This document shows, piece by piece, positions 3,878-18,939 of a DNA stretch of 64,000 bases (position 1 is the stretch's first letter; the number at the start of each line of letters is the position of its first letter). The translations under genes were made by a program, and so were the position numbers. The stretch is from Herminiimonas sp. (GTDB taxonomy: Bacteria; Pseudomonadota; Gammaproteobacteria; Burkholderiales; Burkholderiaceae_D). The notes below the pieces were generated by a model. The model saw only the letters and a program-made list of their open reading frames with translations, did not search any database and was not told the DNA's origin. The DNA lies in the NCBI GenBank assembly GCA_028292665.1, contig JAQGLW010000007.1, positions 1-64,000 of the forward strand. Reading direction: 5' to 3'.

Positions 3878-4945
3878 CTAATGCGCGAGCGCCCTGCAGT
3901 GTTGCGGCGGGAAATGCAGCCAGACGGTCTGTCCTTCCGTGGCTGCGGCATCGACCGGCGTGATCGTGCGCACCGTTTCGCCGCCGGGCAGCGTGACAAG
4001 ATAATCCCGATGGGAACCGAGATAGACCTGGCGAGTGACGGTTCCGCTGATCCAGTTGTTTTCGATGACATCGGGCCTGGCCGACGCGAAGCGGATATCG
4101 TGATGCCGGATCGACACCGACGTCTCGCCTTTCGGCGCGAAGTCGCCCGATCCGCAGCGCAGAATCAAGCCGTGGCCGCAATCGACCGTATCGGCGCCGT
4201 CCCACTGTCCCTTGAAGATATTGGTGCCGCCGATAAACCGGGCGACGAATTCCGACCGCGGCCTTTGATAGATGTCTTCGGGCGTCCCGGCCTGTTCGAT
4301 CACACCCTGGTTCATCACCACGATCAGATTGGCCGTCGTCATGGCTTCCGCCTGATCGTGCGTGACATACACCGTGGTGTACCGATACTTGTCATGCAGG
4401 CGGCGAATCTCGAACCGCATTTCCTCCCTGAGATTGGCGTCCAGGTTGGACAACGGTTCGTCGAGCAGCAAAGTCTCGGGCTCGATCACCAGCGCGCGCG
4501 CAAGTGACACGCGCTGCTGCTGGCCGCCCGACAATTCGCCCGGATAACGTTGCGCGAGAGCGGTCAGTTTGGTGGCGGCAAGGATCGTATCGGCGCGCTG
4601 CTGAATGTCGCTGCGCGGCAGTCCGCGCAGCCGCAGGCCGTAGGCGATATTCTCGAACACGGTCATGTGCGGCCAAAGCGCGTAGCTTTGGAAGATCATC
4701 GACATGTTGCGCCGTTCCGGCGCCACGCTTTCGCCGGGCGCCGAAATCCGGCGTCCGCCGATCCGGATTTCGCCGGCATCCGGTTCCAGGAAACCTGCGA
4801 TCAGCCGCAGCGTGGTCGTCTTTCCGCATCCGGACGGACCCAGCAGGCAAACGAGCAATCCTTTATCGATCGAAAGCGATAAATTCTTGACGACGGCCAA
4901 AGATCCGTAATTCTTGGTCAGGCCGGTCAGTTCGACAAAACTCAT
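3878..4945 (-). CDS. ABC transporter ATP-binding protein (FbpC/PotA type)
   Basis: The 355-residue ATPase of a binding-protein-dependent importer. Walker A is GPSGCGKTT (residues 36-44), the signature LSGGQQQR begins at residue 138 and Walker B ends in LLLDEP (159-164). About 110 residues follow, forming a C-terminal TOBE-like regulatory domain. This layout is that of ferric-iron, polyamine and 2-aminoethylphosphonate importers. The ATG at 4945 has GAGGAGA 6 bases upstream. It follows the permease (stop at 5028) by 82 bases, and a 176-base gap precedes MmgE/PrpD. Linkage to three catabolic enzymes suggests the cargo is an organic acid or its metal complex, not iron alone. Confidence 0.93.
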   Translation of the reverse strand: MSFVELTGLTKNYGSLAVVKNLSLSIDKGLLVCLLGPSGCGKTTTLRLIAGFLEPDAGEIRIGGRRISAPGESVAPERRNMSMIFQSYALWPHMTVFENIAYGLRLRGLPRSDIQQRADTILAATKLTALAQRYPGELSGGQQQRVSLARALVIEPETLLLDEPLSNLDANLREEMRFEIRRLHDKYRYTTVYVTHDQAEAMTTANLIVVMNQGVIEQAGTPEDIYQRPRSEFVARFIGGTNIFKGQWDGADTVDCGHGLILRCGSGDFAPKGETSVSIRHHDIRFASARPDVIENNWISGTVTRQVYLGSHRDYLVTLPGGETVRTITPVDAAATEGQTVWLHFPPQHCRALAH

Positions 4946-5027
4946 TTATTGTCTCCTCATTATTTTTTTATGGGGCTTGCCGCTCACACCGGAGGATCGA
5001 GGCGCGCCTGCCGGTTCTCTTGTGTCA

Positions 5028-6746
5028 TCATGCATGCGGCAAACGCTGTCCGCCGAGGACGGGAAGACGGTTGGCCAGAAAGACGACCGCGAACGACACT
5101 GCCAGCAGCATCAGCCCGAGGACGGAGATCGCCCCGAGGTCGCCGCTCTCGTTCAAGTCGTAAATGATCACCGACACGAGCTTGGTGTTGGCCGTCGTCA
5201 GAAGGATCGTGGCGGATAATTCGCGTATCGTGCCGATGAAGACGAAACACCAGGTCGCTATCACGCTGGTCCGCAGAAGCGGCGCCGTGATCAGGCGCAG
5301 CGTGTTCAGCCGGCTGGCGCCGAGGATGCGGCTCGCTTCTTCGAGTTCCGGATGGATGCCGTGAAAAGCCGACGACATCTGCTGATATCCGGCCGGCATT
5401 TCGATCGTCAAAAACGCGATCAGCAAAATCCACAGCGTCCCGTACAGCATCAACTGCGGATGCGAATAGGTCAGGAATACGCCGACGCCCAGTACGATTC
5501 CCGGTATGGCGACCGGCGCCGTCGCGAGCATGCCCAGCAACGCCGAACCGCGCACCGTGCGGCGCGAAACCATGTAAGCGGCCATCAGCGCAATCGCGGT
5601 TCCGATGGTCGCCGTGGAAAAGCCGAGCAACAACGTGTTCCACAGCGCCATGCGGGTCGCGGAAAAGTCGAAGAACACGAAGTGGAAATTGTGCAGCGTC
5701 AGCGTGCTCCAGGTCAGCGGCTCCGACACATTGCGCGTCAGCGCGGTTTTGAGCAGCGCCGCATAGGGCAGGATCACCGTCAGCAGGAGCACGATCGCGA
5801 CGAACGCGACGGCCGCCCATTTCCAGCGTCCGAGCCGCGCGATCCGGGGCTCGCCGCTTTTACCGCCCAGCACCGTGTAGCCCTTGCGGCCGAGTATCCA
5901 GCTCTTGCCCTGCAACAGCAGAACCGTGATCAGCAACAGCGGAAGAGCCGCCGCCGCCGCCAGTCCGGGCCGCGGCGGATACTGGAACAAGCTCCAGATT
6001 TTGGTGGTGATCACATGAAAGCCCGCCGGCAGCGCAAGAATGGCCGGAGACCCGAACATGGTCAGCGCCTGCAGAATGGCGATCAGCGATCCGGCCAGCA
6101 TCGCCGGCATCACCAGCGGAATCGTCACGCGCCGCAGCGTCGTCGCCGTGCGGCCGCCGAGTATGGCGGATGCGTCCTCGAGGTCGGACGGCACCCGATC
6201 CAGCCCGTTTGCCACCAGCGTGAAGACATACGGAAAGGTATAGCAGGCGATGGCGAAAACAAGACCTTCGATCGTGTAGATATCGACCAGATGTTCGTAT
6301 GCTTCGGATCCGGTCAGGTAGCGGTGCAGCTGATTGATGAGGCCGCTGTTCGGAGCCGCCAGGATTTCCCAGGCGATCGCGCCCAGAAAAGGCGGCGTGA
6401 CGAATGAAGCCGTCACCAGCGCTCTGACGATACGCCGTCCCGGAAGGTCGGTCCGCGAGACCAGCCACGCCAGCGGCGTGGCGATCGCACAGGACAGAAC
6501 GCCGACGCCGAACGCCATTCCGATGGCGAGCAGGAACGGCCGGCGCATGGTCGCATCCGTTATCAGCGCCGCAAAATTGCCGAGCGTGAAAGCGCCGCTC
6601 TTGTCGATCAGGCTGTAGTAGAGCAGCCAGGACAGCGGCAGCACCACGAGCACACCCAGAACCGCCGCCAGCAGGAAGAAAACCGGCCGGAACAGGTCGA
6701 CGCGCAGCAACGGCTTCGGAACCGGCGCAGCAATGACGGCGGTCAT
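5028..6746 (-). CDS. ABC transporter permease, two fused membrane domains (FbpB type)
   Basis: A 572-residue integral inner-membrane protein with two tandem BPD_transp-type permease domains, roughly residues 50-270 and 330-560. Each carries an EAA-like loop that contacts the ATPase: DASAILGGRTATTLRRVTIP in the first half and EEASRILGASRLNTLR in the second. About twelve hydrophobic segments are visible, as expected for FbpB-like permeases of the ferric-iron/organic substrate subgroup. The ATG at 6746 lies 3 bases after the stop of the binding-protein gene, with GGAACC as a weak ribosome site, so translational coupling is likely. It works with the ATPase encoded next. Confidence 0.93.
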   Translation of the reverse strand: MTAVIAAPVPKPLLRVDLFRPVFFLLAAVLGVLVVLPLSWLLYYSLIDKSGAFTLGNFAALITDATMRRPFLLAIGMAFGVGVLSCAIATPLAWLVSRTDLPGRRIVRALVTASFVTPPFLGAIAWEILAAPNSGLINQLHRYLTGSEAYEHLVDIYTIEGLVFAIACYTFPYVFTLVANGLDRVPSDLEDASAILGGRTATTLRRVTIPLVMPAMLAGSLIAILQALTMFGSPAILALPAGFHVITTKIWSLFQYPPRPGLAAAAALPLLLITVLLLQGKSWILGRKGYTVLGGKSGEPRIARLGRWKWAAVAFVAIVLLLTVILPYAALLKTALTRNVSEPLTWSTLTLHNFHFVFFDFSATRMALWNTLLLGFSTATIGTAIALMAAYMVSRRTVRGSALLGMLATAPVAIPGIVLGVGVFLTYSHPQLMLYGTLWILLIAFLTIEMPAGYQQMSSAFHGIHPELEEASRILGASRLNTLRLITAPLLRTSVIATWCFVFIGTIRELSATILLTTANTKLVSVIIYDLNESGDLGAISVLGLMLLAVSFAVVFLANRLPVLGGQRLPHA

Positions 6747-6749
6747 CGA

Positions 6750-7796
6750 TCAGGTTCCGAAATATTCTTCGTACTTCTTCTTGATCGTTTCGGTCTGGCT
6801 CTCGAGGGCTGCCGCGTCCGGGATCAGCAGCTTGATCTGCGCCAGCGGCGTGCGGCCCGGTTTTTCCTTGACTTCGCGATGGAACGAGCGCAGTCCGCCG
6901 AAGTCGCTATTGGCCTGCTGGGCGTCCTTGGTGAACATGAAGTGATAGAACAGGCGCGCTGCATTCGGATGCGGCGCGTTCTTGAGAAGCGCGGCATTGC
7001 CGACCACCAGAGGCGTTCCTTCGGTTGCATAGACAGGCTCGATCGGGACGCCCGATTCCTTCAACAGGAAGACGTTGTATTCATTGCCGTCCGCCATCAC
7101 CGGGCGTTCGCCCTGCGCCAGTTTTTTCGGCGGCTCGGTCGACGACTGAACCTGCATCACGCGCTGCTTGCCGAGCTTCTCGATGTAACCCCAACCGAGC
7201 GCCTGGCTGAGAGCAAAGGTCCCGGTCATGATAGTGCCGCTGTAGCCGGGGTGCGCCTTGACCATCTTGCCTTTCCACTTCGGATCCAGCAGGTCGGCAT
7301 GGCTCTTGGGCGCGTCTTCCTTCTTGACCAGCTTGGTATTGTAGGCAATCACGGAAAGATGGGCCCGGTAAGCGGCGTACTGGCCGTCGGCGTCCCTTTC
7401 CTCCTTCGGCCAATACTTGGCAACGTCGCTCGGCACTGCCGGCTGAAGCCATCCGCTGCGCTTGAAATGGATAAAGTGCACCGCATCGGAAGTTTCGATC
7501 ACGTCGGCCGCATAGATTTTGCTGCCGTATTCCTGATTGATGCGCTGGAATACGCGCTCCGCCCCGGCGCGCTCTACCTGTACCTTGATGCCGGGATATT
7601 TGGCCTCGAAAGCGGTCGCGAGCTTTTCGGCGACCAGCACATCGGTTGCCGTATAAAACACGATCTTGCCTTCCTTCTTCGCCGCGTCCACGAGTTGCGG
7701 TGTCGCGTCATACGGCGCCGGCGCCTCGGCGCTCGATACGCCCGAATACATTGCACCGGCAATGCATAGCGCGGCAATACTGGATTTGCTCAACAT
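6750..7796 (-). CDS. Periplasmic substrate-binding protein of ABC importer (FbpA-like)
   Basis: A 348-residue extracellular binding protein of the FbpA/AfuA type (SBP_bac family). The start at 7796 is chosen over an in-frame ATG at 7970 because GGAGGAGA sits 6 bases before it. The protein then begins with a normal signal peptide (MLSKSSIAALCIAGAMYSG, cleavage near SSA-EA). Mature sequence shows the family pattern EGKIVFYTATD, then the ligand region AADVIETSDAVHF. It is first in the operon, so it should capture the substrate in the periplasm for the permease and ATPase. Members of this family bind Fe3+, but also organic anions and phosphonates. The neighbouring catabolic genes favour an organic ligand. 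Confidence 0.92.
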   Translation of the reverse strand: MLSKSSIAALCIAGAMYSGVSSAEAPAPYDATPQLVDAAKKEGKIVFYTATDVLVAEKLATAFEAKYPGIKVQVERAGAERVFQRINQEYGSKIYAADVIETSDAVHFIHFKRSGWLQPAVPSDVAKYWPKEERDADGQYAAYRAHLSVIAYNTKLVKKEDAPKSHADLLDPKWKGKMVKAHPGYSGTIMTGTFALSQALGWGYIEKLGKQRVMQVQSSTEPPKKLAQGERPVMADGNEYNVFLLKESGVPIEPVYATEGTPLVVGNAALLKNAPHPNAARLFYHFMFTKDAQQANSDFGGLRSFHREVKEKPGRTPLAQIKLLIPDAAALESQTETIKKKYEEYFGT

Positions 7797-7814
7797 GGTT
7801 TGTCTCCTCCGGAT

Positions 7815-7822
7815 TTGTACAA
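7815..7822. promoter_or_regulatory. Possible operator half of GntR/FCD type (TTGTACAA)
   Basis: The perfect 8-base palindrome TTGTACAA lies 18 bases upstream of the binding-protein start codon. GntR/FCD repressors often bind TTGT-N-ACAA-like palindromes, and a cognate regulator gene is divergent. Such a short palindrome can occur by chance, so this is only a candidate. Confidence 0.3.
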
Positions 7823-8108
7823 CAATATGAATTGCCGACAGGCAGCAGTGACCTGCGCCCTCTTCAAATCTTTTCCGAACGTCCGTTGACCGTCTAATGT
7901 GCGGTTTGTTTTCAACGGAATTTATTGTCTTGAAGCATGGATACGTAAAGCATATGTGACTTGACGACAATGCCGAAACATCATTTCGTCATTGTCGGCT
8001 GTCAGTGAAACCGACAGCATTATTCGCACAGGACATTTGCAGAATGTTCATGTTCGAATGATCAATTATTGTCGCTACATGTCAAAAGTGTCAACAATTT
8101 TATTATTA

Positions 8109-8286: not shown

Positions 8287-8982
8287 ATGCGTATCACCCA
8301 GCCTACCAAGCCGAAGCCTGACCAAAGCTTGCCGCTGACCATTGCGGAAGAAATCAAGCAGTTGATCTATGCCGGCGAATTCAAACCCGGCGACCGGTTG
8401 AACGAAGCCGGCCTGGCGCTGCGCATGGGCACCAGCCGCGGTCCGATCCGCGAGGCGATCCGCATTCTTGCAGGCATCGGCCTTGTCACCGCGGTAATGA
8501 ACCGCGGCGTTTTCGTACGCAAGATCACGATGCGGGAAATGCTCGAAATTTACGATTTGCGCGCGCTGGTCTTCGGCTTTGCCGCACAGCGCGCAACCGA
8601 GCACATCAATGACGATCATCGAAGGCAATTCGAATATCTGCTGAGCCAAATGGACGTTGCCGCCAAGGCTGAAAACAGCGATCTTTACTACAATCTCAAC
8701 CTCGAATTCCATGCATTGATTCTGACTCTGTCGAACAGCCAGCGCGCACGCCAGGTGTACGACGATTATGTCAAGGAACTGCATTTGTTCCGGCGCCAGA
8801 ATTTCAATACGCCGGGCAACATGCGCACGTCCAATATCGAACATCGCCGGATTTATGAAGCGATTTCAAAAGGGGCCAAGGCCAAGGCGGGATCGCTGGC
8901 GGAAGACCATATTCTTGCGGGCCGTCAGCGTCTGCTCATCATGAACGACGACTCGATTCCAGCGGTGTTTTCCGGCGACTGA
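8287..8982 (+). CDS. GntR family transcriptional regulator, FCD domain
   Basis: A 231-residue regulator. Residues about 12-80 form the winged helix-turn-helix (GDRLNEAGLALRMGTSRGPI, then EAIRILAGIGLV). Residues about 90-215 form the all-helical FCD effector domain. Its likely metal or ligand histidines are in EFHALI, EHRRIY and EDHILA. It is transcribed away from the importer/catabolic operon, so it is the obvious local regulator, probably a repressor released by the imported acid or a breakdown product. The ATG at 8287 is preceded by AACAGGA about 8 bases upstream. The ligand is unknown. Confidence 0.92.
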   Translation: MRITQPTKPKPDQSLPLTIAEEIKQLIYAGEFKPGDRLNEAGLALRMGTSRGPIREAIRILAGIGLVTAVMNRGVFVRKITMREMLEIYDLRALVFGFAAQRATEHINDDHRRQFEYLLSQMDVAAKAENSDLYYNLNLEFHALILTLSNSQRARQVYDDYVKELHLFRRQNFNTPGNMRTSNIEHRRIYEAISKGAKAKAGSLAEDHILAGRQRLLIMNDDSIPAVFSGD

Positions 8983-9259: not shown

Positions 9260-12200
9260 ATGGGCGTTCTTTTCAGTAAGTCTGAAGATGATATATGCGT
9301 GATGCGTCCGGGTATCGCATTGATCGCTCGCCGGCTATTCCCGGCGATTTTTTTTATCCGGCTCAGGCAAAAAATACTGGGCGCAGGTACCGCTTCCCTG
9401 CTGTTGCTCATTCTGGCGCTGACGCTTTGTTCGCAGGCGTCGGCGGCAAACTCCGCCAACGGCAGCACCTTGTACCACGGTGCCACCTATGCCTGCTACA
9501 GCTGCCATTTGGCAACACCCAGACTTCCTCAACTGAATGCGGCGGATGCGCCAAACGTTCTGGATTATGCAATTGCCAATAACTTCGGCGGCGCCATGGG
9601 CGCGCAAGCGGGCCTCACGGCCTCCGATCGCGCCGATATCGCCGCTTATTTTGGAACGCTGCTCTCCACTCCTACTGTCGCCGTCCCATATCATGGGTCG
9701 ACTGCCGCGACTGCGCTCAATCTCAGCCTCGATGCATCGCCGTTGAATGCACTCAATGCGATTGTCTACAGTACACCGACCAACGGCACGGTCGCCAACG
9801 GCACTTTCATCACTACCAACACCTCTGCCCAAGGCAGTGCCTTGAACGAAGCCACCGTGGTGTATACCCATACCGCGAACAGCTGCTCATCCGACAGCTT
9901 TACCTATCATGCGACGGGAGCGGCCGGCAGTTCCAGCACGCGCACCATCAATATCACGGTGACGCCGCCGGCAGCGCCGACGGCGGCCGCTTCGACTGCC
10001 AACAACGTGGCGTTCAACACGTTAACCACAATTCCGTTAACCATTTCAAATGCGACCGGCATCGTGATCGACTCGGGACTCAGTCCCGCCAACGGTACCT
10101 TGAGTGTTTCCGGCACGACCGTCAGCTACACCAGCAGCAGCACCACATACAATTCACAGGTCACGTTCACCTACCATGCAACCGGACCATGCGGCGGATC
10201 GTCCGGCTCGGCGGTGCAGGTGACGATGAATATCACCGCGCCGACACCGGGCACACCCGCGGTGACTGCCAGCGCTCCCTATAATCCGGGACCGGGAACA
10301 CCGGCAGCGACGGCAATCTCGCTTGCCGGGCCGGTTGTCAACGCGGTCACCGGCGTTACCGTGACAACGGCTCCGACACTGGGAAGCTATACGGTTACCG
10401 GAACCACGGTCAATTACATTCCTGCAGCCGGAAATCTGGCTGCGGATTCGTTCCAGTACTCGACCACCGGGCCCGGCGGAAACTCGGCCGGCAGCGGTAC
10501 TGTCACCGTCAATATCACGCCGCCGGGCGCACCGACGATTACGCAACCGATTACCGTCAGCGTGCCCTATAACGCGGGTGGGGCTGCGGCGACAACGATC
10601 CCGCTTGCAGGTTATATCACCGGCCCGGTCAACAACATCACCGTGACGAGCGCGCCGTCATTGGGAACGGCAACCGTGTCGGGAGCGACATCCGTCAACT
10701 ACACGCCGGCCGCCGCCGATCTGACTTCAACCACCTTCAACTTTACCGCAACCGCGCCGCCGGGATTGCCGACAGGACTGACCTCGGCAGTCGCCACCGT
10801 CACGATCAACATCACGCCGCCCGGCGCGCCGACGATCCAGAACAAAAGCGTTTCGACCGCATTCAACACACCGGTCACGTTCAGCATGGCGTCGTCGATC
10901 AGCGGCACGTACAGCAGCATTACAACAGGAGCGGCCACTGCGGGCGGCAACGCATCGGTGTCGGGCGCCAATATCACCTATACGCCGCTGAACGGATTTT
11001 CCGGCACGGACACGTTCAGTTATACCGTGACGGCTCCGGGCGGCGCGAGTTCATCGGCGAACGTGACCGTCACGGTCGCAGCCCTTCCGACCGTGGCGAA
11101 CATGAATGTCGCGGTGCCTTACAACACGGCGACCACCTTCAACCTTCCCGTGAGCGGATTCACCCAGATCACCGTGATGAGCGCCCCTTCCCATGGCGCT
11201 GCGCCGACGCCGGCCGCAAACAGTACGAGCATCACCTATACGCCCGCGTCAGGCTATACCGGCACCGACAGCTTCAGCTACACGGCGACCGGCCCGGGCG
11301 GCATTTCGGCTGCGGCTACGGTCAGTATCGCCGTCAGCACGCTGCCGCCTGCGGCCGGCGCCGCCGCAATGACAGTCCAGCTCAACACGCCGGCGACGCT
11401 GGACCTGGCGCCCTTCATCACGGGCTCCGCCATTTCCGGCGTTTCCGTCGCCGCCGCGCCCGGACACGGCGCAGTCACGGTGAACGGCACCAAGGTTACC
11501 TTCACGCCGGTCAATAATTATTTCGGCGCCGATGCGTTTTCATACCTGGCGTACGGCAGCGGCGGCACGTCGGCCGCCGCTGCCGTCAGCGTGACCGTGG
11601 TCGGGCGGCCCGATCCGTCAAAGGATCCTGGCGTCATCGCGCTGATCGGTTCGCAGGTGGAAACGGCCAGACGTTTTTCGCGCGCGCAGATTTCCAATTT
11701 CCAGGCCAGGCTGGAAACGCTGCACCGCAGTCCCGGCGGCGCCGAAAACAATGACGCTGCCGCCGATCCCGCTATCGGCTCCGGCGCGGAAGCCGGCGCA
11801 AGCCGCGATGCCGGCGCAGACAAGCGGTACTTCAATAGCCAAAACGTCACGCGGCAGGACAACGGCAGACCGGCCGGCGCCGCTTATCAGCCGGCGGCGT
11901 CGCTGTCCGCCAATTCCGTGCCGGTCCCGGCCGCGGTTGCGCCGCGCAGCGTGCTGGCGACCGTCGTGTCGGCGATCTCGACTTCGTCCGGCGGCGCATC
12001 CCAGCCGGACCAGGCGGCCAGATTCGGCAACGCACTGATGTTAGCTACGACTGCGTGGCAGAGTTCGTCGCTCAATCTGTCGTCCAGCACCGGGAAGGCC
12101 GACGGCTCGTCCGCTCTGCCGGGCGGGATCGACGTATGGACCGGAGGCGGCGTGAAGTTCGGAACCCGCGACCAGACGGCCGCCGGCAACGACGGCATCG

Positions 12201-13813
12201 ACTTCAGCACCGACGGCATCAGCGTCGGCGCAGACCGCCGCTTCGGCGATCAACTGGCGCTGGGCATCGGTTTCGGCTATGCGCGCGACAGGACCGATAT
12301 CGGCAACGACGGCACCAGCAGCAAATCGAAAAGTTACACCATCGCCGCTTACGGCAGTTACCAGCCGACCGGCAATACATTCATCGACGGCGTCGTCGGC
12401 TACGGCTCGCTGGATTACCGGACGGATCGCTATGTGGCTCCGATGAACGACTTTGCGCGCAGCCGGCGCTCCGGCGACTATCTGTTCGGCTCGCTTGCCG
12501 CAGGTTATGAGCATCGGATGAAAGGATTGCTGCTGTCGCCATACGGACGGCTCGATCTTGCGACGCACCGGCTGCATCAGGGCACGGAAACAGGCGCCGG
12601 CCTGTACGCGTTGACCTATGCCGGCCAGAATGTGCCGTCGGTCCAGCTGGCGGCGGGCATGCGCGCCGAGTCGTCGCACGAGACGGATTTCGGATGGGTA
12701 TCGCCGCGGCTGCGCGTGGAGTTTCAGCATGACTTCAAGGGCGAGCAGCAGGCGTCTGTTTCATATGCCGATCAGATCAACGGGCCGAGCTACGTGATTC
12801 CGTCATCGTCCGACAATCGCAATTCGCTTGTCCTCGGAGTCGGCAGCGATTTCGTGCTTCGCCGCGGACTGACATTGAGTTTCGACTATCAGGCGCAACG
12901 CTCGTCCGGACAGGAACGCAGCCAGTCGCTGTTCTTCAAGCTGATAAAGGATCTGGACGGCCACGGCCCTTCGCCGTCGTTGCTCGCGTCGTCGGCATTT
13001 GGCGCGGGATCGCCCGGCATCCGCGTCGATGCGGGCTATCTGTTCGACGACAACGTGAGCCGGGCCGGCAGCGCTTCGGACATATTGATGGACAGCGCTT
13101 ACAGCCTGAACCTGAGCAAGAGCATGACCGTTCCGCTTAATGAGCATACGCGCCTGCTGCTCAACGGATTCCTGGGAGGCGAAAAATTCCGCACCTACAC
13201 CGGCCTCGGGCGCATCTATGCCGGAGGCGAGGCCGAGCTGCAGTACCGCACTGCCGGCGAATTCGGCGCGCCTACTTTCGGCCTGTTCGGAAATGCGACC
13301 GTGGAAGAATATGAATCCGACCTGCGCGACGGCTATCGCCTGTCCGCCGGCGTCTCTGCGCGCAAGCCGGTAACCGACCGCATCAGCCTGTTCGGCGCGC
13401 TCGCGAAAAACGTGCGCAACGGCAGAAGCGCCGTATTCGATACCAGCGATTATTCCGCGCGGCTGAATCTCGACTATGCGCTTGTGCCGAAAGGCACGCT
13501 GTATTTCACCGGCGAATATCGCAAAGGCGACATCGTATCTTCGGGAACGCACTCGCTCGCCAATGTCGACATCGCCGAAGTGTTTGTCCGGGACGATGTA
13601 TTCAGCCGCTCGCAGTTCTATGCGTATCGCGCCGACGGCAAGACCGTGTTCCTGACGATCGGCTGGAACCTGCCGCTCGGCCAGAAGGATTCCGTCGATT
13701 TGTCATGGCGGCGGGTGCGCTCGACACCGAGCCTGAAGCCGTCCTTTGCGACAGCGGAAACCATCCGCTATATCGACAACCAGTTTTCCATCCTGTACCT
13801 GACCAGTTTCTAA
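9260..13813 (+). CDS. Cytochrome c-Ig-repeat autotransporter with two C-terminal beta-barrels
   Basis: A very large (1517-residue) predicted outer-membrane protein. A signal peptide covers about residues 25-48 (ASLLLLILALTLCSQASA). Residues 50-135 look like a small monohaem cytochrome c: CYSCH at 79-83, with GAMG downstream offering a possible Met ligand and a helical end (LTASDRADIAAYFGTLL). Residues 140-780 are seven Ig-like repeats of about 90 residues, each ending in patterns like DSFSYTATGPGG and TVNITPPG. The linker (near 785-950) has the usual autotransporter phrase ARRFSRAQISNFQARLE. Residues about 953-1235 form an autotransporter barrel. About 1250-1517 look like a second barrel ending in phenylalanine, the normal outer-membrane assembly signal. 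An alternative ATG at 9302 gives the same signal peptide. A haem-bearing passenger on an autotransporter is unusual. Confidence 0.85.
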   Translation: MGVLFSKSEDDICVMRPGIALIARRLFPAIFFIRLRQKILGAGTASLLLLILALTLCSQASAANSANGSTLYHGATYACYSCHLATPRLPQLNAADAPNVLDYAIANNFGGAMGAQAGLTASDRADIAAYFGTLLSTPTVAVPYHGSTAATALNLSLDASPLNALNAIVYSTPTNGTVANGTFITTNTSAQGSALNEATVVYTHTANSCSSDSFTYHATGAAGSSSTRTINITVTPPAAPTAAASTANNVAFNTLTTIPLTISNATGIVIDSGLSPANGTLSVSGTTVSYTSSSTTYNSQVTFTYHATGPCGGSSGSAVQVTMNITAPTPGTPAVTASAPYNPGPGTPAATAISLAGPVVNAVTGVTVTTAPTLGSYTVTGTTVNYIPAAGNLAADSFQYSTTGPGGNSAGSGTVTVNITPPGAPTITQPITVSVPYNAGGAAATTIPLAGYITGPVNNITVTSAPSLGTATVSGATSVNYTPAAADLTSTTFNFTATAPPGLPTGLTSAVATVTINITPPGAPTIQNKSVSTAFNTPVTFSMASSISGTYSSITTGAATAGGNASVSGANITYTPLNGFSGTDTFSYTVTAPGGASSSANVTVTVAALPTVANMNVAVPYNTATTFNLPVSGFTQITVMSAPSHGAAPTPAANSTSITYTPASGYTGTDSFSYTATGPGGISAAATVSIAVSTLPPAAGAAAMTVQLNTPATLDLAPFITGSAISGVSVAAAPGHGAVTVNGTKVTFTPVNNYFGADAFSYLAYGSGGTSAAAAVSVTVVGRPDPSKDPGVIALIGSQVETARRFSRAQISNFQARLETLHRSPGGAENNDAAADPAIGSGAEAGASRDAGADKRYFNSQNVTRQDNGRPAGAAYQPAASLSANSVPVPAAVAPRSVLATVVSAISTSSGGASQPDQAARFGNALMLATTAWQSSSLNLSSSTGKADGSSALPGGIDVWTGGGVKFGTRDQTAAGNDGIDFSTDGISVGADRRFGDQLALGIGFGYARDRTDIGNDGTSSKSKSYTIAAYGSYQPTGNTFIDGVVGYGSLDYRTDRYVAPMNDFARSRRSGDYLFGSLAAGYEHRMKGLLLSPYGRLDLATHRLHQGTETGAGLYALTYAGQNVPSVQLAAGMRAESSHETDFGWVSPRLRVEFQHDFKGEQQASVSYADQINGPSYVIPSSSDNRNSLVLGVGSDFVLRRGLTLSFDYQAQRSSGQERSQSLFFKLIKDLDGHGPSPSLLASSAFGAGSPGIRVDAGYLFDDNVSRAGSASDILMDSAYSLNLSKSMTVPLNEHTRLLLNGFLGGEKFRTYTGLGRIYAGGEAELQYRTAGEFGAPTFGLFGNATVEEYESDLRDGYRLSAGVSARKPVTDRISLFGALAKNVRNGRSAVFDTSDYSARLNLDYALVPKGTLYFTGEYRKGDIVSSGTHSLANVDIAEVFVRDDVFSRSQFYAYRADGKTVFLTIGWNLPLGQKDSVDLSWRRVRSTPSLKPSFATAETIRYIDNQFSILYLTSF
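9677..11603 (+). repeat. Seven tandem Ig-like protein repeats inside the autotransporter
   Basis: The encoded segment (residues about 140-781) consists of seven related units of 85-95 residues. Shared landmarks are a 'VPYN'-like start, an 'SAPSHG/TLG' middle, 'VNYTPA' and 'DSFSYTATGPGG'. They resemble the cadherin/Ig-like tandem repeats used as stalks in large surface proteins. The repeats are diverged at DNA level, so recent expansion is not suggested. Confidence 0.75.
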
Positions 13814-13824
13814 AGGATTCAGCC

Positions 13825-15783
13825 GTGAATTACAGATTCTTTCTTGTCCGCGCCGGCGCAATTGCCGCGCTTCTTTTGCTGGCGTCGTGCGGCGGCGGTG
13901 GCGGCGGCTCGTCCGATGTGGTGGTGGGCGCGCCAGTGCCGACGCCCGTGATTACCGGTCCGAACAGTTTCCTGCTGTTCCCCAATCCGCAGATTCAGGC
14001 CGACGGTTCGAGCGAGACCGACTCGATCGCCTATGCCGAAGCGTACTATGCCGCAATCGATCCGGCCAATGCGAAGGATACGCTCGACAAATGGAAGGCG
14101 GCCAACAATTTCGATCCGACGCTCGGCCCGCCCAGGCAGGTTTCGGCGGTGTTCGGCGATGTGCGCGACCTCGGCTACGGACGGCGCATGACGGGCTGGC
14201 AAAACCCGGACGGCACCATCGCCATGATGGTGGAAAATTACCTGGTCACCGCGGGCGCCGGTTATACCTATTCGCCGCTGAACCTGGATGCGGCAGTCAA
14301 GCAAGATGCGCGCTGGCACGTCGGCACCAACGGCATCGAATTCAGTCCCGGGCCGAACGGCACGATGAAATTCGCCAAGTTCTATACCTTCAACCCCGTT
14401 ACCGGCGAGCGGCTGCTGGCCGCGAACCTGGACGGCCGCGGCACCAAAGCGATGCCCGGCATCTGCATCAGTTGCCATGGCGGCCGCGCCGATCCGCTGA
14501 CGCCGCCCGTCCCGGCCACCGGCAAGCCCCTGTTCGCGCTGGTGCAGAATTCGGTGTCGCAGCAGCGCGGCGATACGCAGGCGCGGCTGCAGATGTTCGA
14601 TGTGGACAGCTTCGATTTTTCGCCGCAGTCGGGCTTTACCCGGGCCGAACTGGAAGCTTCGCTGAAGACGCTCAATAAAATGGTGTTGTGCACCTACCCG
14701 CTGCCGGCCGCCTCGGCCGCCCCGGAAGATGCGTGCCGCCCCGCGGCTGGACCGAACGAATGGCAGGGCGCCGCCGATGCGGTGATCAAGGCGGCATACG
14801 GCGGCAGCGGCATGCCCAATGCCGCGTTCTCCGACAGCTATGTTCCGACCGGCTGGTTGAACGCGGGCCAGTCCTCGCTCTACAGAAACGTGCTGCAGCC
14901 GGCCTGCGTGACGTGTCACAGGCTGCGCGGAACCGGCAACCAGTCCGACCTCAGTTTCTCCGAATACCTGACGTTCAAGGATTATTCCGCTCGCATCAAG
15001 GCCCATGTATTCGATCGCGGCAACATGCCGCTCGCAAAAATCGTATCCGAAAGATTCTGGGGTTCGAGCATGGCCGACACGCTGGCCACCTGGCTTGAAG
15101 GTCTCGGACTTGGATACAGCCTGCACGATGGCGCACTCAACCTGCTGCGGCCCGGCCGTCCGGTGGCCGACCCCGGCCCGAACCGCGTGGTCCGGTTCGG
15201 CCCGACCGCGCTGTCGGCAGCCGGCAGCCTGTACGCCACTTCCTTTAGCTGGTCGATCACGTCGAATCCGGGCGGCGCCGGCACGCTGGCCAACCCCAAT
15301 TCGTCTGCGCCGACATTCACCGCGACCGCCGACGGCACCTACGTGCTGCAGCTCATCGCGAGCAGCGACACCGCTCAAAGCGCTCCTGCGTCGCTGACGC
15401 TTGTCGTGAAGAACGCGCTGACGCCGGACCCTGCGGCAATCCGCTTTTCGGATATCAAGAATGTCGTGCAGACCGCCGGATGCACCACCTGCCACACGCC
15501 TACCGTCGTCGGCGGCGGCCGTCCGCCGATCTATTACATCGATACCGATCGGAACGGCGACGGCGTAATCGACGCCACCGATACCGCATGGTTTTACAAG
15601 GAGCTGCGCGGACGCATCAATTTCACCGATGTGGTGGCCAGTCCATTGTTGCGCAAGCCTTCGAACAACCATCATTACGGGCTGCTGCAGCCGGGATTCG
15701 ACACCAGCCTGCCGGTCGGGGATCCGGGCCGCGCCAATTACGATTTGTTTGTGAACTGGATCATGAACGGCGCACCGCAGTAA
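13825..15783 (+). CDS. Three-haem c-type cytochrome lipoprotein
   Basis: A 652-residue protein starting at GTG 13825, 11 bases after the autotransporter stop, with AAAGGA 8 bases upstream. The start gives a lipoprotein signal peptide with lipobox LLAS-Cys22 followed by a glycine run. Three CXXCH haem sites are present: CISCH (214-218), CVTCH (361-365) and CTTCH (553-557). Between the second and third, residues about 455-535 resemble a PKD/Ig-like domain. It should be a periplasmic or outer-membrane-anchored multihaem cytochrome. Close coupling to the haem-containing autotransporter suggests the two exchange electrons or form one surface complex. No close functional homologue is recognised. 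Confidence 0.85.
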   Translation: MNYRFFLVRAGAIAALLLLASCGGGGGGSSDVVVGAPVPTPVITGPNSFLLFPNPQIQADGSSETDSIAYAEAYYAAIDPANAKDTLDKWKAANNFDPTLGPPRQVSAVFGDVRDLGYGRRMTGWQNPDGTIAMMVENYLVTAGAGYTYSPLNLDAAVKQDARWHVGTNGIEFSPGPNGTMKFAKFYTFNPVTGERLLAANLDGRGTKAMPGICISCHGGRADPLTPPVPATGKPLFALVQNSVSQQRGDTQARLQMFDVDSFDFSPQSGFTRAELEASLKTLNKMVLCTYPLPAASAAPEDACRPAAGPNEWQGAADAVIKAAYGGSGMPNAAFSDSYVPTGWLNAGQSSLYRNVLQPACVTCHRLRGTGNQSDLSFSEYLTFKDYSARIKAHVFDRGNMPLAKIVSERFWGSSMADTLATWLEGLGLGYSLHDGALNLLRPGRPVADPGPNRVVRFGPTALSAAGSLYATSFSWSITSNPGGAGTLANPNSSAPTFTATADGTYVLQLIASSDTAQSAPASLTLVVKNALTPDPAAIRFSDIKNVVQTAGCTTCHTPTVVGGGRPPIYYIDTDRNGDGVIDATDTAWFYKELRGRINFTDVVASPLLRKPSNNHHYGLLQPGFDTSLPVGDPGRANYDLFVNWIMNGAPQ

Positions 15784-15848: not shown

Positions 15849-16586
15849 TCAATAGCCGCGGCGCGGCGCTTCGTAACTGTTTAGCGGAAATACGAAGGGC
15901 GTGCTGCGTCCGACCAATGTTTCGATCAGCATCAGTTCCTGATCGGTGTGATTCTTGAAGCCGGCCAGCCGGATATTTTTTCCGGGCTGCTCGTCCGCGG
16001 TGATGTACACCGGTTTGTCATGATGCGTGGCGACCACGACATCGGTGCTTTCGGGATCCTTGGCAGCCATGACGTCGGTGGTGCCGTAACAGGTGCAGAA
16101 GTAAGTCAGTTCCGGGTCGGCCTCGACATACAGACCGGTGCCGCGTATGCCGAGGGTGGCGGTCGGCGTATTGATGCTCATCGGCTGATTGCGCGATACG
16201 GAAAGTAATTTTCCGGAAAGCATCCGCAGGCCGGAAATAATCAATGATCCGGATTCCTTTTTCTCCCCCTTGAGATCGAGATGCGTGTCGCTGCGCAGGA
16301 TCATTGCGTGGCCGCCGACGACGAAAACGATTTCGCTGTTGCTGCCGGTTTCGATCGTATCGTTGGGACCGATCGGCGTGTCCAGGGTTGCATCCTTGCC
16401 GTTGACCCTCACTTTGCCGACCAGGCGATAGATCGATTGGCCGGGGGGAAGCTTCGATGGCGGCGTGCCGAATATGCCGTCGGCCCGCGCGCTTCGGCCC
16501 GGCAGCACGGTGGCAAACAATCCGGCCGCGAGTCCGTTGATCAACAACCTGCGGCGCGGGTCTTCAGCCTTTCCAAAGCCATCCAT
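15849..16586 (-). CDS. FecR-domain exported protein
   Basis: A 245-residue protein with a FecR domain. The start at 16586 is chosen because AAGGA precedes it by 7 bases; an in-frame ATG at 16613 lacks this. The N-terminus has a twin-arginine-like signal (PRRRLLINGLAAGLFA, cleavage near ARA). The FecR core runs about residues 40-150 and includes NGKDATLDTPIGPNDTIETG and the ending SINTPTATLGIRGTGLYVE. FecR domains sense or transmit periplasmic signals, but stand-alone exported versions are often of unknown role. Here it lies tail-to-tail with the three-haem lipoprotein. No sigma factor gene is adjacent, so a classical FecIR system is not supported. Confidence 0.85.
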   Translation of the reverse strand: MDGFGKAEDPRRRLLINGLAAGLFATVLPGRSARADGIFGTPPSKLPPGQSIYRLVGKVRVNGKDATLDTPIGPNDTIETGSNSEIVFVVGGHAMILRSDTHLDLKGEKKESGSLIISGLRMLSGKLLSVSRNQPMSINTPTATLGIRGTGLYVEADPELTYFCTCYGTTDVMAAKDPESTDVVVATHHDKPVYITADEQPGKNIRLAGFKNHTDQELMLIETLVGRSTPFVFPLNSYEAPRRGY

Positions 16587-16787
16587 ACCTGTTCCTTTAG
16601 GGGTGTATTGCATTCAGTCAATCTTGCAAGGCTAAAGCCTAGCATAAGTCCGCATGGACCTATCACGGTAAATTTTCCTGGAAGAACGATTGGAGATTGA
16701 ATGACGATGCAGGAATCAAGGACGGCACAGGCCGGCGGATTGCCCGGGAACCGGCAGCCGGTCCCTAGCCTGCTTGCCCAGCCAGTC

Positions 16788-18074
16788 TCAATCCAGCGGC
16801 ACAGTCCGGTAACGGCTGACTTCGACCGAAGACACCTGTTCAGCGCGATTGCCCCATGAACTGCGGATATAAGACACCACGGCGGCCACTTCGCTATCGC
16901 TCAAAAAGGGGCCGTACGGCGGCATGCCGTATGGACGCGGGTTGCCGTCGGTGCTCGGCGGATAGCCGCCGTTCAACACCATGCGAATCGGATTGATCGC
17001 CGAAGGCATCGTGATCGCACGGTTTCCTGCCAGCGGCGGATAAGCCGGCGGGATGCCTGTCCCGTTTGCCTTGTGGCATTCGGCGCAATGCTTTTCATAA
17101 AGCGTCGCGCCGAGCCGGTGCGTGCTTTCGGAATCCTGGCTGGACATCCGCATCGCTCCGGAGCCGGATGGCGCGCTTGTTTGCGGCAGCGATTTCAGAT
17201 AACCGGCCATTGCGCGGATATCGGTATCCGACAGATACTGCAGGCTTTCGCGCACCACCTCGGCCATCGGACCGAACACCGTGCTGCGGGGAGACACGCC
17301 GCTCTTGAGCAGATCCGCGATATGCTGCACCTGCCAATCCCCGAGACCGGCTTCGGCATCCGATGTCAGCGAAGGCGCATACCAGTTCAGGATCGGTATC
17401 ATGCCGCCGGCCAGATTCGCCGCGGTCTCGGTGCCGCCGAGCACGTTGCGGTTGGTATGGCATGCGCTGCAATGACCCAGGCCCTGCACCAGGTAGGCGC
17501 CGCGATTCCATTCGAGAGTCTGGCCGGTGTCGGGCTGATAGACGCCGGGACTGAAATACAGTGCGCGCCAGCCGGCCAGCAGGATGCGCTGGTTATAGGG
17601 AAACCGCAGCTCGTGCTGCTGGTTGGTCCGATGCGCCGGCTGCAGCGTTCGAAAATAGGCAAACATCGCGTCCGAATCGGCACGCGTCACCTTGGTGTAA
17701 TCAGGATACGGAAACGCCGGATACAGGAAACTCCCGTCCTTCGATTTTCCGTTGTGAAGCGCGCGCCAGAAATCGTCCGAGGTCCAGCTGCCGATACCGG
17801 TTGCGACGTCGGGCGTGATGTTGGGCGAAAATATATTGCCGAACGGCGTCGGAATCGACCGCCCGCCTGCATACGGCGTGCCGCCGCGCGTCGTATGGCA
17901 TGCGATGCAATCGCCGGCGCGCGCCAGGTAAGCGCCTCGCGCCACTTGTTCGGCTGCATTCGCGACCGGAACGCTCGCTTCGTTGCTGCCGGAATCGTGC
18001 AGGAATTGGAATCCGATTACGGCCGCAGGAATCAGGACGATTGCGGCAAGAATGATAAACAGGATGCGTTTCAT
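16788..18074 (-). CDS. Membrane-anchored three-haem cytochrome c (AdhB/gluconate dehydrogenase subunit type)
   Basis: A 428-residue protein with an N-terminal membrane anchor (residues 4-24) and three cytochrome c domains with haem sites CIACH (56-60), CSACH (202-206) and CAECH (330-334). This is the architecture of the cytochrome subunit of membrane-bound alcohol, aldehyde or gluconate dehydrogenases. That subunit passes electrons from a periplasmic dehydrogenase to ubiquinone. It is 12 bases downstream of the diheme cytochrome gene, so the two form an operon. No dehydrogenase subunit (PQQ, flavin or molybdenum) is present nearby, so its electron donor is unknown. It could serve the neighbouring surface cytochromes. 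Confidence 0.9.
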   Translation of the reverse strand: MKRILFIILAAIVLIPAAVIGFQFLHDSGSNEASVPVANAAEQVARGAYLARAGDCIACHTTRGGTPYAGGRSIPTPFGNIFSPNITPDVATGIGSWTSDDFWRALHNGKSKDGSFLYPAFPYPDYTKVTRADSDAMFAYFRTLQPAHRTNQQHELRFPYNQRILLAGWRALYFSPGVYQPDTGQTLEWNRGAYLVQGLGHCSACHTNRNVLGGTETAANLAGGMIPILNWYAPSLTSDAEAGLGDWQVQHIADLLKSGVSPRSTVFGPMAEVVRESLQYLSDTDIRAMAGYLKSLPQTSAPSGSGAMRMSSQDSESTHRLGATLYEKHCAECHKANGTGIPPAYPPLAGNRAITMPSAINPIRMVLNGGYPPSTDGNPRPYGMPPYGPFLSDSEVAAVVSYIRSSWGNRAEQVSSVEVSRYRTVPLD

Positions 18075-18086
18075 CGGCTGCTCCTG

Positions 18087-18833
18087 TTATTGCGGCGCAC
18101 TGCCGCAGGTCATCGGCCGTTTTTCCGGTGCGGACGGCAACGGTGCGGTGTCGGCGGGAATCGGCTGCGACGCGAGCCATACGGATGCCGCGCTGATATC
18201 TTCCACGTTGAGCCGGGCCGCAATCTGCGCCATGCAATCCGGCGCCGCGGTGCGCCGCGCGCCGTTTTTCCATGCGCCGAATTGCGCATTCAGGTAATCG
18301 CGCGGCAAGCCTAGCAATCCGGGAACAAACGGCGCAACGCCGGTCAAGGTCTTTCCATGGCATGCAATGCAGGCGGGAACGTCTTTCGACGCATCGCCCG
18401 ACGTCACCAGCATGCGTCCCCGTTCGAGCACCGCGGGCGTCACATTGATCGATTGCGGCGCCGGATAAGGCGGATGCTGCGCGGAAAAATATTCGGCGAA
18501 CTCGCGCAGGTACGCATCCGACAAATGCTCGACCATGTAGATCATCAACGGATACTGGCGGCGTCCTTCGCGGAAATTGACAAGCTGATTGTAAAGATAG
18601 CCTGACGGCTTGCCTGCGATGCGCGGATAATAACCGTCGCTCGCGGCCCTTCCCTCCTTGCCGTGGCATGCGGTGCAGGCGACCGCGCGTTGCGCGATCG
18701 TATCGGGAAGAACGGATTGTGCGCCGGCGGCGCCGGCCATCGTCAGACACATCGTGAACAGCCAGAATACGCGGCCCGGCCGCAAGCAAGCCGCGGCCAT
18801 GCCATTACCGCAAGCCTCAATTATTTTTTTCAT
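18087..18833 (-). CDS. Diheme cytochrome c (c4-like)
   Basis: Counted from the ATG at 18833, the protein has 248 residues, with a signal peptide ending near AGAAGAQS and two haem sites, CTACH (53-57) and CIACH (155-159). The two-domain pattern (RIAGKPSGYLYNQLVNF, then LLGLPRDYLNAQFGAWKNG) is that of cytochrome c4-like periplasmic carriers. The start is uncertain: in-frame ATGs exist at 18935 and 18860, and no strong ribosome site distinguishes them. It is the first gene of the pair with the three-haem cytochrome and probably shuttles electrons to or from it. Function beyond electron transfer cannot be stated. Confidence 0.87.
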   Translation of the reverse strand: MKKIIEACGNGMAAACLRPGRVFWLFTMCLTMAGAAGAQSVLPDTIAQRAVACTACHGKEGRAASDGYYPRIAGKPSGYLYNQLVNFREGRRQYPLMIYMVEHLSDAYLREFAEYFSAQHPPYPAPQSINVTPAVLERGRMLVTSGDASKDVPACIACHGKTLTGVAPFVPGLLGLPRDYLNAQFGAWKNGARRTAAPDCMAQIAARLNVEDISAASVWLASQPIPADTAPLPSAPEKRPMTCGSAPQ

Positions 18834-18882
18834 GCCGATAGCATAACGGAATCGCTGCATTTCCGTATTTTCAGAGCTCCGC

Positions 18883-18907
18883 AAAAACCTGGCGAAGTGC
18901 GGTTTTT
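18883..18907 (-). terminator. Possible terminator after EF-G
   Basis: AAAAACC (18883-18889) pairs with GGTTTTT (18901-18907) around an 11-base loop, about 33 bases past the EF-G stop on the minus strand. On that strand the right arm ends in a T run. The stem is short and AT-rich, so the call is modest. Confidence 0.4.
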
Positions 18908-18939
18908 CTCCAGTTCGGAGGCGGATATTTTTCAAGGAA

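Follow-up and report, generated by a model that had tools for sequence, protein, structure and literature searches.

A cytochrome c domain at the tip of a predicted tandem-barrel autotransporter encoded beside a triheme lipoprotein in Herminiimonas sp.

The autotransporter gene and its neighbours

The stretch of DNA analysed here (the window, 64,000 nucleotides of contig JAQGLW010000007.1 from Herminiimonas sp.) carries an open reading frame at 9260-13813 (+), which encodes a protein of 1517 amino acids and is followed by the genes of a predicted outer-membrane lipoprotein of the triheme c-type, referred to as TRI, and of a FecR-domain protein. The order of the domains within the protein and the TRI and FecR-like neighbourhood are shown from sequence (Table 1), while the roles given there to the helix and the linker of residues 782-958 are inferred. 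It is possible that the real start codon lies later than the one listed, for example at the ATG at 9302. The protein is the only one with a PF03797 domain found in its 4.33 Mb genome. It has the sequence architecture of a type Va autotransporter, possessing a signal peptide, an N-terminal passenger, and a 12-strand PF03797 translocator, but a second barrel, B2, follows the translocator. The seven Ig-like repeats and the autotransporter barrel described in the initial annotation were both confirmed by family searches; B2, TRI, and the FecR-like gene, which is convergent with TRI, had been missed.

Table 1. Features of the autotransporter gene and of the two genes that follow it in the window.
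Feature	Position	Strand	Residues or length	Basis and remarks
Signal peptide region	9260..9445	+	residues 1-62	cleavage probably SQASA/ANSA; read by eye from sequence
Class-I cytochrome c domain	9446..9670	+	residues 63-137	family profile against PDB; PF13442/PF00034
CYSCH haem c attachment motif	9494..9508	+	residues 79-83	shuffles, conservation, alignments
Met113, candidate sixth ligand	9596-9598	+		alignments
Seven Big_9 Ig-like repeats (stalk)	9674..11602	+	~residues 139-781	PF17963, 7 stretches, E 1.1e-36
Conserved likely helix (GRPDPSKD...RFSRAQISNFQARLETLH) and low-complexity linker	11603..12133	+	residues 782-958	alignment; ahead of the barrel
Autotransporter beta-domain, 12 strands	12134..12892	+	residues 959-1211	PF03797, E 2e-50; strands continue to ~1231
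Second C-terminal barrel B2, 12 predicted strands	12995..13810	+	~residues 1246-1517	AlphaFold2; stand-alone copies
TRI, triheme c-type lipoprotein with PKD domain	13825..15783	+	652 aa	lipobox; CXXCH at ~14464, 14905, 15481
FecR-domain protein	15849..16613	-		PF04773, E 5e-5; twin-arginine-like N-terminus; FCTCYG and HHD motifs

The gene for TRI starts with GTG, which is preceded by AAAGGA and lies only 11 bases past the stop codon of the autotransporter gene, and the two genes are inferred to be co-transcribed. A Foldseek search of TRI returned only PKD- and Ig-type proteins as top matches. No terminator-like site was found between TRI and the FecR gene, and no Rfam family matched anywhere in the window. 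Longer versions of TRI (~1,055-1,089 aa), with a fourth CXXCH near the C-terminus, are present at three other loci (L080, L083, and L139).

Among 49 relatives of the FecR-domain protein, FCxCYG is present in 46, HH[DNE] in 41, and a twin-arginine-like N-terminus in 38. The two motifs might provide a Tat substrate with a binding site for a metal or cofactor.

Several further genes surround these three. Two more c-type cytochrome genes lie just past the FecR gene at 16788-18935 (-), the first with three PF00034 stretches and the second, which is PdsA-like, with two cytochrome stretches. Upstream, an ABC transporter set at 3878-7970 (-), consisting of an ATPase, a 572-aa permease, and a solute-binding protein, resembles ferric-iron or similar uptake systems, and a GntR/FCD regulator (8287-8982) is located between this set and the autotransporter gene. 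The additional cytochromes and the transporter were not counted as part of the module, because they are absent beside it, as judged by eye, in L032 and other relatives.

The N-terminal cytochrome domain and the second barrel

Searched alone, the N-terminal domain matched cytochrome families only weakly, both in Pfam (PF13442, E 0.003, and PF00034, E 0.012, both under the Pfam cut-offs) and in the PDB (best match 1gks, E 0.069). A family profile built from nine relatives matched 147 PDB sequences (E up to 10) with cytochromes c on top, the best of them being a cytochrome c6 (E 1.2e-7, positions 2-72 of 76), and all nine family members matched PF13442 as well as PF00034. Matches of the profile to the X183 structures 8q1w (E 0.003) and 7b21 (E 0.0045) were weaker than that to cytochrome c6. 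The cytochrome profile search that had been proposed as a check in the initial annotation therefore supports the fold rather than rejecting it, and the cytochrome-like flanks claimed there held for the family, though the lone domain is weak. The CXXCH claimed for the N-terminal passenger held as well. It is the single CXXCH of the protein (C79-Y-S-C-H83), is located near the N-terminus of the domain, and is kept in relatives. Met113, the candidate sixth ligand, lies in the second half of the domain and is in register with a Met of most aligned relatives, and the genome encodes two PF01578 cytochrome c assembly genes.

A CXXCH that arose by chance, in a domain without haem, is the simplest alternative, and the single-sequence Pfam scores under the curated cut-offs would speak for it. 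This alternative is all but excluded by the family profile, by the rarity of the motif in shuffles of the whole protein (5 in 20,000), by the haem motif kept in 15 of 16 relatives, and by the haem-rich neighbour. The cytochrome assignment is settled at the sequence level and the conserved haem site is shown; haem binding itself is inferred, as there are no haem data.

Related short cytochrome c domains also occur in other, probably exported, proteins (L003, L004, L010, L015, and L018), which carry Ig, choice-of-anchor-like, or other repeats and have the domain at either the N- or the C-terminus.

The ~285 residues past the autotransporter barrel, which form B2, matched no Pfam family. An AlphaFold2 model of the barrels, made from a 28-member alignment (mean pLDDT 80, pTM 0.66, with B2 mostly at 75-97), placed 12 main strands in the autotransporter barrel and another 12 in B2. 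B2 is also found alone in many genomes, with its own signal-peptide-like N-terminus, while autotransporter relatives without B2 terminate at the first barrel. Two separate barrels were assigned on three grounds, namely the number of strands, the existence of B2 on its own, and the relatives that lack it, and the product of the gene is most likely a tandem-barrel autotransporter. One large barrel of 24 strands was considered and rejected, since matches to TonB receptors had an rmsd of ~15-22 Å, B2 exists in lone copies, and B2-less autotransporters stop at the first barrel. Some stand-alone relatives of B2 adjoin large sensor-like proteins and have no TRI (L042:8488-9477, L043:9316-10206, and L039:10728-11681).

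Recurrence of the module and its counterpart in other Gammaproteobacteria

A scan of genome contigs with the whole reading frame as a single protein found no relative, and relatives were recovered instead by family-level searches and by alignment of TRI. The TRI-alignment scan, which covered one genome each for 84,980 species, identified 45 loci, in nearly all of which B2 adjoins TRI, and FecR is usually next to them. The module recurs across Betaproteobacteria, Gallionellaceae included, in two layouts, one with B2 fused to the autotransporter (29 non-duplicate loci altogether) and one with B2 alone. On the TRI tree these layouts are interspersed, and at least five changes between them are forced, suggesting that the autotransporter part was acquired or lost on repeated occasions. 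The isolate Paucimonas lemoignei DSM 7445 and the complete genome GR16-43 carry the fused gene as well, and an assembly chimera or binning artefact in the metagenome-assembled genome was rejected because the gene order is the same in both.

The haem motif tracks TRI. Complete fused genes adjoining TRI number 16, and 15 of them carry an N-terminal haem-c motif, which is CXXCH in 14 and CX4CH in one (L050), and the exception is a short gene without any motif (L059). In autotransporter relatives not beside TRI (L125-L133), such a motif was found in none of nine, and eight of them lack B2. The association of haem motif and TRI adjacency has a Fisher p of 4.9e-6, which is not corrected for relatedness and rests on groups chosen post hoc. 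Many loci possess B2, TRI, and FecR without any autotransporter; together with L059, which lacks the motif, they indicate that the module does not need the cytochrome in every case. Among the conserved neighbours of the module, no multihaem gene other than TRI was found.

The protein might instead serve chiefly in adhesion or in sensing at the surface, in which case its haem is structural or acts as a redox or gas signal read through the FecR-like protein, without any electron conduit. Adhesins are common among Ig-repeat autotransporters, and a FecR-domain gene does accompany the module. This explanation is unlikely, however, because the triheme lipoprotein is the constant neighbour that the haem motif follows, and because neither a sigma factor nor a TonB receptor was seen next to the FecR gene at the loci that were inspected by eye.

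A class-wide search with TRI gave good matches beyond the order to which the window belongs. In these genomes, the gene that immediately precedes those of the small barrel and TRI usually encodes a separate Ig/cadherin-repeat protein of ~980-2600 aa, referred to here as the stalk protein. All six complete stalk proteins (L158, L159, L160, L162, L164, and L165) have an N-terminal haem-c-like motif, which is CXXCH in four, CX3CH in one, and CX4CH in one; the stalk gene of L161 is incomplete at a sequence edge and was left out, and L163 has no upstream stalk gene. The genes in the barrel slot were scored by the B2 profile in L159, L163, and L164, while those of L158 (476 aa), L160, L161, L162, and L165 have no listed B2 score and were identified through position, size, and sequence appearance. 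One stalk protein (L165:12617-15565) also has a clear second cytochrome domain within the stalk (PF13442, E 2.9e-10, residues 608-682).

Five stalk proteins were scanned against NCBIfam, which assigned choice-of-anchor V to the N-terminus of three and choice-of-anchor U, in one case weakly, to the region near the C-terminus of all five. Their C-terminal tails, judged by eye, run from Gly/Ser-rich through hydrophobic to basic and are GlyGly-CTERM-like; no match of the GlyGly-CTERM model to these tails was returned. According to a previous study, GlyGly-CTERM proteins reach the cell surface through type II secretion and rhombosortase (PMC6219818). Rhombosortase above the family cut-off is encoded in eight of eight counterpart genomes versus none of 14 controls, and the genome of the window encodes one too. 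The case for a haem destined for the cell exterior rests chiefly on the filling of one slot of the module by two haem-stalk proteins that are exported in different ways. This suggests a cell-surface destination, with the reservation that the two versions have not been shown to be homologous in their N-terminal domains.

Proposed function and relation to known systems

We propose that the product of the gene is a type Va autotransporter with a cytochrome-tipped passenger of seven Ig domains and that the module acts as an outer-membrane electron-relay unit, and we hold this reading with a probability of about 0.6. In this reading, haem would be attached to the cytochrome domain in the periplasm, and the C-terminal barrels would insert into the outer membrane through BAM. 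The Ig passenger would exit with its C-terminal part first, leaving the cytochrome to come out last and to form the distal end, where it may exchange electrons between TRI and some extracellular partner, and B2 perhaps holds TRI in place. The direction of electron flow and the identity of the outside partner are left unspecified. Haem loading, translocation of the holo-cytochrome through a type V barrel, surface exposure, redox partners, and electron direction are all inferred, and it speaks against an electron relay that no haem chain across the membrane was identified.

The hard point of the proposal is the translocation of a folded haem domain. A calmodulin domain folded by calcium and hairpins locked by disulfides were reported to impair or stall autotransporter secretion (PMC8419823). 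It is therefore possible, though less likely, that the cytochrome folds around its haem, blocks the final step of translocation, and stays on the periplasmic side to transfer electrons there, so that the protein spans the outer membrane with the Ig domains outside. Attachment of haem c takes place in the periplasm, the folded or locked domains that hampered secretion were placed at the passenger N-terminus, and the cytochrome, being N-terminal, is the last part to cross. Against this, the gammaproteobacterial counterparts have their haem motif on stalk proteins whose tails are of the surface type, and an N-terminus retained inside with the Ig part outside would require two strands in the pore. 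Of the two locations offered in the initial annotation, a surface-displayed or tethered electron-transfer protein is supported by the TRI neighbour and the gammaproteobacterial stalk tails, without experimental data on haem or location, while a domain held on the periplasmic side is not excluded.

The window protein has the PF03797 barrel and the N-terminal passenger in common with type Va autotransporters such as EstA (PDB 3kvn) and with autotransporters annotated as 'putative Ig domain-containing protein', and the Ig-repeat ones also share the Ig repeats and the region of helix and linker. Compared with these, the window protein adds a cytochrome c at the tip and a second barrel behind the translocator.

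Cyc2 likewise joins a single haem c to an outer-membrane barrel within one polypeptide, with an AXPXFAR[Q/K][T/Y] motif upstream of its CXXCH and a 16-strand porin directly after the cytochrome (PMC8406198). This likeness, and the presence of the module in Gallionellaceae, would allow a Cyc2-like device, in which the cytochrome plugs one barrel from the periplasm and oxidises a soluble metal ion entering the pore. Such a device is very unlikely, because the barrels have 12 strands and lie ~800-1100 residues from the cytochrome, because B2 exists alone without a cytochrome, and because the AXPXFAR motif is missing from the window protein, which also led us to reject its identity with Cyc2. Unlike Cyc2, the window protein has two 12-strand barrels after ~820 residues of stalk and linker, as well as a triheme partner gene.

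The X183 domains of Teredinibacter TERTU_2913 and Cellvibrio Cbp2D are small His/Met cytochromes c in large secreted multidomain proteins (PMC10916295), to which the window protein is alike in these respects; the profile matches to them given above are weak. They differ in having several redox domains tied to polysaccharide degradation and no autotransporter barrel. The porin-cytochrome conduits (MtrCAB/MtoAB and PCC3; PMC10734462) resemble the module in that an outer-membrane barrel and a multihaem protein are encoded together. However, the module has a small 12-strand barrel, 3+1 haems rather than at least ten, and no periplasmic multihaem subunit, and the MtrCAB criterion, a large barrel enclosing a periplasmic multihaem cytochrome, is not met with 12-strand barrels. 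The gammaproteobacterial haem stalk is similar to GlyGly-CTERM/rhombosortase proteins in its tail and in the rhombosortase-bearing genomes (PMC6219818), whereas the window protein would be displayed by an autotransporter barrel instead.

No description of a cytochrome-bearing autotransporter was found in the open-access literature searched, as the initial annotation had anticipated in calling the combination unfamiliar among characterised autotransporters. In a review of what type V passengers do, neither cytochromes nor redox nor electron transfer is mentioned, and the main text of a pangenome study on Gallionellaceae is silent on autotransporters and on FecR. Within that literature, the module is apparently undescribed, and the gene represents a variant on the type Va autotransporter.

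A bolder reading, which we hold to be somewhat less likely than not, is that the module is an undescribed outer-membrane electron-transfer system of Beta- and other Gammaproteobacteria. It would hold a single-haem cytochrome tens of nanometres off the cell on an Ig stalk, coupled to TRI and a small barrel. In one lineage, display would rely on an autotransporter with two barrels, which exports the cytochrome together with its cofactor, and in the other on type II secretion with a rhombosortase anchor.

Autotransporters are mainly known as adhesins, proteases, and toxins, and they are prone to being jammed by folded domains. With a conserved autotransporter tipped by a haem-c domain, the type V export of a cofactor-loaded domain becomes directly testable. 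The module of haem stalk, small barrel, TRI, and FecR-like protein is unlike the outer-membrane electron conduits with which it was compared. Since it occurs in lineages that cycle iron, Gallionellaceae among them, it may have been overlooked as a path by which electrons cross the cell surface or travel along it.
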